Position numbers and translations under genes: made by a program
The notes under the pieces: generated by a model
The model's database searches: none
Seen by the model: the letters and a program-made list of their open reading frames with translations, nothing else
What the model was told of the DNA's origin: nothing
Part shown: piece after piece, positions 17,359 to 30,654 of the stretch
Layout: each line of letters opens with the position of its first letter
Position numbering within the stretch: position 1 is the first letter of the stretch
Assembly: GCA_031277165.1 (NCBI GenBank)
Contig: JAISLT010000027.1
Span: 1-32,818, forward strand
From: Spirochaetaceae bacterium
GTDB taxonomy: Bacteria; Spirochaetota; Spirochaetia; Treponematales; Breznakiellaceae
Length of the DNA: 32,818 nucleotides
Direction of reading: 5' to 3'

Positions 17359-17384
17359 TAAGTTACCGACCGGTCGTTAACTTA
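17359..17384. promoter_or_regulatory. TetR-type operator palindrome
   Basis: A 26-bp inverted repeat in which 12 of 13 positions pair, centred on CGACCGGTCG and flanked by TAAGTTA / TTAACTTA. Cores of this sort are common operators of TetR-family repressors that control efflux pumps. It sits about 55 bases upstream of the efflux -35 box. No TetR gene is in the window. Confidence 0.55.
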
Positions 17385-17480
17385 CAGGATATATATCTCT
17401 GCATGTTCTGTCAAGCGCCAAGCCCTGTATTTTTGCGAATACTTGTGCCTGGTCCCGGTCTTATGGTACAGTTTTTGAAT

Positions 17481-17745
17481 TAACGCTCCTATCGGAGCGC
17501 TTTTGCCGGCGCAGCGCACTGGGCTGACTCTAGTCAGCCCGCTTTTTCTGCGAAGCGCCGCATCCGTTAGGCGCTGACGCGTGGTACAATTGTTGATTAA
17601 CGCTCCTATCGGAGCGCTTTTGCCGGCGCAGCGCACTGGGCTGACTAGAGTCAGCCCGCTTTTTCTGCGAAGCGCCGCATCCTTTAGGCGCTGACGCGTG
17701 GTACAATTGTTGATTAACGCTCCTATCGGAGCGCTTTTGCCGGCG
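17481..17745 (+). repeat. 117-bp tandem repeat running into tRNA-Leu
   Basis: Two full units begin at 17481 and 17598 and a partial third unit begins at 17715. Each unit holds the stem CGCTCC-TATC-GGAGCG followed by CTTTT, then GCCGGCG, then a second stem GGGCTGAC/GTCAGCCC with GCTTTTT, then a third stem AGCGCC/GGCGCT and GGTACAATTG. The units are almost identical; the loop of the second stem is CT in one and AG in the next, and one other base differs. The third unit stops after GCCGGCG, which is the 5' acceptor strand of tRNA-Leu. Confidence 0.85.
17718..17738 (+). terminator. Terminator-like hairpin directly before tRNA-Leu
   Basis: The stem CGCTCC (17718-17723) / GGAGCG (17728-17733) with loop TATC is followed by CTTTT and then directly by the first base of tRNA-Leu. 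A -10-like TACAAT at 17702-17707 would place the transcript start just before it. It may be a weak terminator, an attenuator or a processing signal. Confidence 0.45.
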
Positions 17746-17821
17746 TGGTGGAATGGTAGACACGGTAGACTCAAAATCTACTGTCCGCGAGGATGTAAGA
17801 GTTCAAGTCTCTTCGCCGGTA
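17739..17821 (+). tRNA. tRNA-Leu (anticodon CAA)
   Basis: The acceptor stem is GCCGGCG (17739-17745) with CGCCGGT (17814-17820), ending in a G-T pair. The anticodon stem GTAGA/TCTAC encloses the loop CTCAAAA with anticodon CAA. A variable arm (GTCCGCGAGGAT) and a T-arm AGAG-TTCAAGT-CTCT follow. The discriminator is A. It reads UUG codons. The CCA end is not encoded. Confidence 0.93.
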
Positions 17822-17868
17822 TGGAGCTGTTTGCACGGGTGGTTTGTTGTGTTTCGCTCAGGGGGCCC

Positions 17869-29526: not shown

Positions 29527-30654
29527 ATGAAAAGAAATTCCGGTACAATAAACCGGGTGTTGATAGTATGCGTGGTGTTGTTGGTGGCGGGAAAACTCAT
29601 TGCCTCCAACCCGCCCTCCGATTTCCGGTTCGACCTGAACGAGGCCGGAGACGGCGTAGTTATTCAAGAGTACACCGGTAAAGCCGCCGCGGTGGTTGTA
29701 CCCGCCAGTATAGAGGATTTCCCCGTCACCGAAATCGGGAGCCGGGCGTTTGGAAATTCGGGAATTGTATCGGTGGTACTACCCGATTCGGTTACGACCC
29801 TGGGGAGCGGTTGTTTTAGCCGTTCGGAAAAATTAACAACCGTTACGCTTTCCAAAAACATTAGCCAATGGGGAGATTCCGTCTTTTCCGGCTGTACCGC
29901 CCTGACATCCGTCACCATACCCCAGGGCGTTACCAGCATAGGAACTGAGGCTTTTTCCGAATGTACCGCCCTTAAAATCGTCACCATACCCCAGGGCGTT
30001 ACCAACATAGAAGAAAGCGTTTTTTCCGGCTGTACCGCTTTGACATCCGTAACCATACCGGAAGGCGTTACCAGCATAGGGAAGAGCGCTTTTCAACGCT
30101 GTACCTCTCTAACATCCGTCACCATACCCCAGGGCGTTACCAGCATAGGGCAGGAAGCTTTTTACCGCTGTACCGCCCTGACATCCGTAACCATACCGGA
30201 AGGCGTTACCAGCATAGGGCAGAGCGCTTTTTCCGACTGTGCTGCCCTGACATCCGTAACCATACCGGAAGGCGTTACCAGCATAGGGGATTCCGCTTTT
30301 TCCGGCTGTACCTCCCTGACATCCGTCACCATACCGGAAGGCGTTACCAGCATAGGGGTGGCCGCCTTTTACGAATGTACCACCCTGACATCCGTCACCA
30401 TACCCCAAGGCGTTACCAGCATAAAGGATGGCGCCTTTAGGGATTGTTCCGCCCTTAAAACCGTCACCATACCGGACAGTGTTACCAACATAGCGAATTT
30501 CGCCTTTTCCGGCTGTGCCGCCTTGGCCACGGTTGAATTAACGCCCCACCCTATTACGTTTGGCAGCTACAATAATTCTTTCAGCGGTTGTGCGCGGTTA
30601 AATCTTGCGTCCCGAAAAAAACTCAAAGATTCCGGGTTTACCGGGGAATTCTAA
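29527..30654 (+). CDS. Secreted BspA-type leucine-rich repeat protein
   Basis: A 375-residue protein. Residues 8-27 are a hydrophobic signal segment (VLIVCVVLLVAGKL). After a short spacer, eleven 23-residue LRR_5 units run from about 75 to 327; the core reads CTALTSVTIPEGVTSIG followed by AF. A divergent twelfth unit ends the protein. BspA-type repeats are common on the surface of oral and gut treponemes and may bind host or bacterial surfaces. The ribosome-binding site AAGGAGG is perfect. The gene is 12 bases from the lipoprotein gene that follows, so they form an operon. The exact target is unknown. Confidence 0.88.
   Translation: MKRNSGTINRVLIVCVVLLVAGKLIASNPPSDFRFDLNEAGDGVVIQEYTGKAAAVVVPASIEDFPVTEIGSRAFGNSGIVSVVLPDSVTTLGSGCFSRSEKLTTVTLSKNISQWGDSVFSGCTALTSVTIPQGVTSIGTEAFSECTALKIVTIPQGVTNIEESVFSGCTALTSVTIPEGVTSIGKSAFQRCTSLTSVTIPQGVTSIGQEAFYRCTALTSVTIPEGVTSIGQSAFSDCAALTSVTIPEGVTSIGDSAFSGCTSLTSVTIPEGVTSIGVAAFYECTTLTSVTIPQGVTSIKDGAFRDCSALKTVTIPDSVTNIANFAFSGCAALATVELTPHPITFGSYNNSFSGCARLNLASRKKLKDSGFTGEF
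29887..30507 (+). repeat. 69-bp coding repeats of the LRR protein
   Basis: Nine consecutive 69-bp units encode 23 residues each. Long stretches such as ACATCCGTCACCATACC and GGCGTTACCAGCATA are identical between units even at silent positions, which points to recent duplication or gene conversion. Number of units may vary between strains. Confidence 0.85.

Follow-up and report, generated by a model that had tools for sequence, protein, structure and literature searches.

The window analysed here is a stretch of 32,818 bp that makes up contig JAISLT010000027.1 of a Spirochaetaceae bacterium (assembly GCA_031277165.1; its genome is called G000 below), and our subject is an array of 117-bp repeats directly before the tRNA-Leu(CAA) gene on the forward strand. 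Tandem Repeats Finder (TRF) gave a period of 117 bp at positions 17464-17745, with 2.4 copies, 96% matches, and no indels, which confirms the head-to-tail repeat that an earlier note on this DNA had described. The 5′ acceptor strand of the tRNA reads GCCGGCG, a sequence present at 17505-17511, 17622-17628, and 17739-17745, and each unit does carry this copy of the tRNA 5′ end, as had been said. The tRNA gene lies directly 3′ of the array and was called at 17738/17739-17822 (ARAGORN; Rfam RF00005, 56.8 bits). Every 117-bp unit contains one hairpin (hairpin 2), the -10-like box TGGTACAAT already noticed earlier, and another hairpin (hairpin 1). Terminator and promoter scans of the window yielded nothing beyond these hairpins, and in a low-threshold search with 4227 Rfam models the tRNA alone was above threshold, the remaining matches being far under their gathering scores.

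In two congeneric genomes, G001 and G002, the same locus lacks the array. Their gene order is as in the window, with an efflux-protein gene upstream in both and the LexA gene seen downstream in G002, and their tRNA-Leu(CAA) gene has no unit. The leader of the window is homologous to theirs up to GCCGGCG, and the window has an extra 234 bp (2 × 117) between nucleotides 7 and 8 of the tRNA. By this empty-site alignment, the leftmost GCCGGCG is the old tRNA 5′ end, and the last unit provides the one that the tRNA has today. In other words, two whole units were added between nucleotides 7 and 8, the last of which restores the tRNA. The native leader of G001 and G002 lacks the body of the unit (the P1 stem and hairpin 2). 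Hairpin 1 is present in the native leader of the window, that is, in the "partial copy" on the left, but not in the leaders of the two congeners; this hairpin is thus either a remnant of an earlier copy or has been homogenised with the units. The earlier count of two full units and one partial unit holds, with the correction that the truncated copy is the left one rather than the right one.

Three parts of the unit are conserved: hairpin 2 enclosed by a P1 stem, then a guide, and finally hairpin 1 with the right end after it. The guide consists of the few bases directly after the 3′ strand of P1 and is complementary to the right end of its own unit, 8-10 nt past hairpin 1. The features of the locus are as follows (the covariance model is described below).

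17464-17503, + strand: truncated leftmost copy or native tRNA leader, with -10-like TGGTACAGT, hairpin 1 (CGCTCC-TATC-GGAGCG, 17484-17499), and CTTTT (TRF; partial model match at 17447-17503, E 0.019; alignment with the unit-free leaders of G001 and G002)
17505-17511, + strand: GCCGGCG, original 5′ end of the tRNA, which now flanks the array on its left (sequence; empty-site alignment)
17512-17628, + strand: inserted unit 1, 117 bp, with a GCCGGCG of its own at the end (TRF; covariance model match at 17505-17620, 101 bits)
17512-17517, + strand: 5′ strand of P1 in unit 1 (CAGCGC), pairing with 17571-17576 (covariation counts)
17521-17540, + strand: hairpin 2 of unit 1, GGGCTGACT-CT-AGTCAGCCC
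17577-17580, + strand: guide of unit 1, ACGC, complementary to GCGT, nucleotides 5-8 of the tRNA (fixed-register definition)
17582-17590, + strand: extended -10-like TGGTACAAT of unit 1; copy in unit 2 at 17699-17707 (sequence; motif enriched in tRNA-linked units)
17601-17616, + strand: hairpin 1 of unit 1, same sequence as above; copy in unit 2 at 17718-17733
17629-17745, + strand: inserted unit 2, 117 bp, whose GCCGGCG is the present tRNA 5′ end (TRF; covariance model match at 17622-17737, 104.9 bits)
17629-17634, + strand: P1 of unit 2, pairing with 17688-17693 (covariation counts)
17638-17657, + strand: hairpin 2 of unit 2, loop AG; the entire 20-mer is the exact reverse complement of hairpin 2 of unit 1
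17694-17697, + strand: guide of unit 2, ACGC, complementary to GCGT at 17743-17746 (fixed-register definition)
17739-17822, + strand: intact tRNA-Leu(CAA) (ARAGORN; Rfam RF00005)

The unit belongs to a dispersed repeat family. A covariance model built from 23 units matched 98 of 200 genomes of this spirochaete family, with 74 copies in G211, 60 in G143, and 36 in G174, and in 244 genomes of the order every match fell within the same family, a result that doubles as a negative control for the model. In a pattern scan that covered 85,000 species, the hits were almost exclusively metagenome-assembled genomes (MAGs) named "Treponema sp.", plus one "Spirochaetia bacterium". As judged from these sequence searches, this is a repeat family confined to one spirochaete family, the termite-gut treponemes and their relatives. 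No description of it was found in the open literature on treponeme repeats at tRNA genes, which does not prove that none exists, and Treponema is not mentioned in the surveys of stem-loops and of repetitive extragenic palindromes (REP)/HUH that we searched. For most copies about 1.5 kb was read on each side, and since copies within a genome are related, the counts exceed the number of independent events. G000 itself has three further copies with a 150-bp period before tRNA-Val(GAC) on contig C106 (L090, about 37191-37603) and single ones on C121, C90, and C47. The C106 variant carries an extra hairpin, TTTTCCCGCCGGGAAAACC; a similar variant with a 148-bp period precedes tRNA-Val in G134, and G143 also has a unit before tRNA-Val. 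One subfamily of G211 (loci L197, L203, L220, L229, L237, and L242) shows about 30 bp more of conserved sequence, CTGCCGCATACCTCGCTTTGACC, to the left of the unit, so that its left end may lie further out.

We aligned 150 units with the covariance model, and such a model-fitted alignment favours the structure. The three stems were paired in 93.3% of cells, and double-sided changes numbered 626 against 173 after shuffling and at most 81 in controls with shifted partners. A smaller, structure-free MAFFT alignment (A1) gave the same picture, with 91.3% paired and 70 against 21 double changes. Structured RNA should show compensatory changes that include G-U pairs on the transcribed strand; here covariation was strong, but wobble cells were rare and without clear strand bias (26 G.T and 42 A.C against 3030 Watson-Crick), which argues for hairpins maintained at the DNA level. 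The hairpins may act in single-stranded DNA. Hairpin 2 has the loop CTAAAG in 114 of the 150 units and the inverted CTTTAG in one, so that the loops CT and AG in the window are both departures; the inversion noticed earlier is real in the two window copies and is a local oddity. A T-run follows hairpin 1 in 94 of the 150 units and hairpin 2 in 27, so the T-runs once ascribed to both hairpins are general for hairpin 1 alone, and a terminator role of hairpin 2 is not a family feature. The extended -10 motif TGNTRNAT was present in 30 of 65 tRNA-linked units and 14 of 85 others, which are not independent units. This difference is weakly consistent with the earlier idea of a promoter for tRNA-Leu: at tRNA genes the linker could possibly supply a substitute -10 promoter as a secondary effect. 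Control of the tRNA by both hairpins does not emerge as the purpose of the family, because in several genomes most copies are not near any RNA gene.

The guide and the right end of a unit correspond to each other. With the register fixed, 24 of the 30 distinct guides paired with their own right end at at least 4 of 5 positions, whereas right ends shuffled among units gave a mean of 3.6 and a maximum of 10 in 2000 trials; distinct guides were used because copies within a genome are related. The free-register result was weaker (19 of 50 with at least 5 nt, against 5.2 when shuffled). Outside tRNA genes, right ends and guides formed the pairs GTTACC/GGTAAC and GTGCC/GGCAC, with GTTCC/GGAAC and CGCCC/GGGCG as further cases, while the pairs at RNA genes were GAGC/GCTC for tRNA-Ser, GGGA/TCCC for tRNA-Leu(TAA), and GCGT/ACGC for tRNA-Leu(CAA). 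The guide follows the target: GCCGGCGT of tRNA-Leu goes with ACGC and GCCGAAGT of a variant tRNA-Leu with ACTT. The match of the guide in Leu arrays extends to the first base of the tRNA past the copied segment, even in upstream units that do not adjoin that base, and the guide thus looks fitted to the tRNA gene in its intact form. At first units outside RNA genes, agreement of the left flank with the guide's complement was only slightly above that of shuffled pairs (3.32 against 3.03), and 1 of 1000 shuffles was as high. From these data we infer that the guide chooses the target.

Right ends adjoin the 5′ ends of tRNA-Leu, Ser, Val, Phe, Thr, and Arg genes and of the gene for transfer-messenger RNA (tmRNA), and the guide matches the RNA gene concerned. 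In a sample seeded with tRNA-Leu cases, 42 of 101 arrays ended 0-9 nt before a tRNA gene. Among the sampled arrays of three genomes taken for copy number, those ending 0-15 nt ahead of a tRNA gene or the tmRNA gene and oriented like it were 6 of 42 in G211, 3 of 9 in G174, and 1 of 28 in G143, and none began just after an RNA gene, on its 3′ side; the chance estimate for G211 is well under 0.1 cases (about 50 RNA genes, ~20-nt windows, 2.8 Mb). The remaining copies are intergenic, or at least away from RNA genes. In G168, the complete genome of a cultured relative, a single unit stands at tRNA-Leu(CAA). Most copies in G211 and G143 are not beside an RNA gene, yet they keep the pairing of guide and right end. 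The earlier note had proposed repeated insertion at the tRNA 5′ end, an idea it held to depend on the unit recurring at other tRNA loci and varying in number. Both are the case, with many tRNA and tmRNA 5′ ends occupied and copy number variable, and the exact empty site in two congeners lends the idea further support. Elements directly before the tmRNA gene were seen in G174 (L253:1500-2443) and G211 (L246:3446-3512), the G174 array comprising about nine units of two alternating types. At L103:2480-3158 (G115), opposite-strand units beside tRNA-Leu(TAA) enclose a reversed piece of a tRNA-Leu gene, which suggests that rearranged tRNA fragments may be carried between units.

We consider it probable that the array represents two head-to-tail insertions of a non-autonomous, guide-addressed mobile DNA element of about 117 bp that targets tRNA 5′ ends. 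Its grounds are the observed repeat family, its structure, the complementarity of guide and right end, the empty site, and the preference for tRNA 5′ ends. The left end of such an element would be the P1 stem around hairpin 2, and the right end would comprise the guide, the AT-rich linker, hairpin 1, and the terminal 4-6 nt complementary to the guide. Both the right end and the target would be recognised through the guide, and insertion would take place after a target similar to the element's own right end. Where the target is a tRNA or tmRNA gene, this right end would equal the ~4-7 nt with which that gene begins, so that insertion would shift the original 5′ end upstream, supply a new one, and leave the RNA gene intact. 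The new right end could then serve as the target for the next copy and give rise to head-to-tail arrays. Arrays would thus grow by re-insertion and not by unequal crossing-over, which could afterwards alter copy number and homogenise the copies.

Several observations weigh against this interpretation. The guide in the window pairs at 4 nt only, one of them outside the copied 7-mer. Left flanks often match the guide in part only, which weakens the case for target choice by the guide. Among the loci read (flanks of ~1.5 kb) there was no autonomous copy holding a gene between split left and right ends; one split pair in L246 of G211, adjoining tRNA-Thr, was weak and had 286 bp between the ends, too short for a gene. 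A linked recombinase, which the earlier note had proposed to look for, was not found. As candidate movers, Y1_Tnp (PF01797) genes were not co-distributed with the units. Their association with unit number was negative (genomes with at least 4 units, 18 with and 29 without; odds ratio 0.38, p 0.007), they were absent from the unit-rich genomes G143, G174, G018, G199, and G202, and no unit flanked any of 30 Y1 loci examined. IS110 occurred in only 39 of 200 genomes and was absent from unit-rich G143, G174, G018, and G199, and reverse transcriptase (RVT_1) was absent from many unit-rich genomes. Nearly all of the genomes are fragmented MAGs, for any single one of which the absence of an enzyme gene is weak evidence; it was repeated in genomes more than 90% complete (G174, G114, and G203).

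A somewhat unlikely alternative is that the units are REP/REPIN-type elements, or bacterial interspersed mosaic elements (BIME), moved by a Y1 (RAYT, TnpA_REP) or IS200/IS605 transposase that acts in trans or has since been lost; the guide would then be of the IS605 type and hairpins 1 and 2 would be subterminal hairpins. In IS200/IS605 ends and REP, guides at the hairpin feet choose the cleavage site, and changing them retargets the element (PMC6006769, PMC8266576). The order guide, hairpin, right end, in which the guide pairs with the cleavage sequence, is that of the IS608 right end (PMC6006769, PMC8266576), and as in IS608, ISDra2, and their non-autonomous derivatives, the target is related to the right end and a target-site duplication is not needed. 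Like REP/BIME, the units are dispersed, high-copy intergenic palindromes, single or in tandem (36-74 copies in G174, G143, and G211), with hairpins that are almost purely Watson-Crick. A strand-specific short motif may be a further likeness: the minus strand of hairpin 2 often reads GTAG followed by a stem with a TTTA loop, as in Marinomonas REP (many units have this GTAG-type foot, with CTAC after the 3′ arm, and others have GGAG, GCGG, or GCCG). However, the unit measures ~117 bp and has three stems, P1 around hairpin 2 plus hairpin 1, against 20-40 bp. The guide is placed 3′ of hairpin 2, after the 3′ strand of P1, and ~20 nt 5′ of hairpin 1, whereas in IS200/IS605 it is at the 5′ foot of both subterminal hairpins. 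It matches the element's right end through 4-6 nt of plain antiparallel complementarity and varies between copies, about 30-50 different guides occurring in one family, and the location at tRNA and tmRNA 5′ ends is precise. No transposase was found, nor any tnpA-carrying relatives in the loci read. The units resemble REP or IS200/IS605 ends in logic; we do not grant membership, because Y1 genes are negatively associated, the 30 Y1 loci have no units, and the guide is at the foot of neither hairpin.

The units could also be tandem duplicates of an RNA sequence: either a structured leader that governs how the tRNA is transcribed or matured, with hairpin 1 as an attenuator and the guide shielding the 5′ strand of the tRNA from RNase P, or a small RNA like rtT. 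Hairpin 1 and its T-run just upstream of the tRNA, the -10 motif enriched in tRNA-linked units, the guide complementary to the tRNA 5′ strand, and the conserved loops CTAAAG and TTRAC would suit such an RNA. We regard it as quite improbable, given that most G211 and G143 copies keep the same pairing away from RNA genes, that G-U pairs are not in excess on either strand, and that congeners lack the unit at the same tRNA. The 178-bp repeats of Escherichia coli tyrT (rtT RNA) are likewise tandem repeats at a tRNA gene that each carry a copy of one tRNA end; unlike the present units, they lie on the 3′, downstream side and are not a family dispersed over many tRNA genes. Slippage that merely duplicated the tRNA leader in place and in tandem, without mobility, would fit the near-identity of the head-to-tail copies in the window, the similarity of the unit linker to the native leader, and the closer likeness of copies within one array than between genomes. 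As an origin it is refuted, and overall very improbable: P1 and hairpin 2 are not in the native leader of the congeners, and homologues are scattered over many unrelated sites and other tRNA genes, so duplication could account for array growth but not for origin. Integrases that use tRNA genes as attachment sites offer another parallel, as their elements restore the displaced part of the tRNA; mostly this is the 3′ half, with an integrase and long identity blocks, in contrast to the 5′ end, 4-7 nt, and no gene here. A mini-element mobilised by a tyrosine recombinase, or by a system like the bridge RNA of IS110/IS1111, with an identity block or an RNA guide at the tRNA 5′ end, would explain the short identity block restored at the tRNA, the guide complementary to element end and target alike (as in PMC11208160), and the head-to-tail joints, which would equal a circle junction. 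We find this scarcely credible. IS110/IS1111 use a bispecific RNA with two loops and a DEDD recombinase (PMC11208160), but the units have a single guide, no CT core, DNA-type hairpins, and no co-distributed IS110, and at non-tRNA copies the left and right flanks are not identical, as strand exchange at an identity block would need. Integron attC sites were rejected as well, there being no conserved GTT/AAC core.

The insertion of a guide-addressed element, which we favour, has a bolder form: gene-less elements with a DNA guide of a few nucleotides that varies from copy to copy, in lineages specialised for particular tRNA or tmRNA 5′ ends, with the genes restored and a mover outside the known Y1, IS110, and reverse-transcriptase systems. 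We think this form unlikely as a whole. If true, elements with a changeable address of their own would amount to natural DNA insertion that can be reprogrammed, with tRNA 5′ ends as harmless insertion sites of a new class. The family is large and offers many natural guide-target pairs, from which the guide/target rule could be read and directly tested. In these gut symbionts, inserted DNA would have rebuilt tRNA and tmRNA promoters and leaders time and again.

Two other features of the window were seen. A palindrome at 17364-17384, GTTACCGACCGGTCGTTAAC, precedes the efflux operon and is kept in G001 and G002 while its surroundings diverge; it is probably a repressor operator, predicted to be of the TetR type. 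At 29883-30522, a 69-bp tandem repeat of about nine copies, also detected with periods of 138 and 207, probably codes for short leucine-rich-type repeats.
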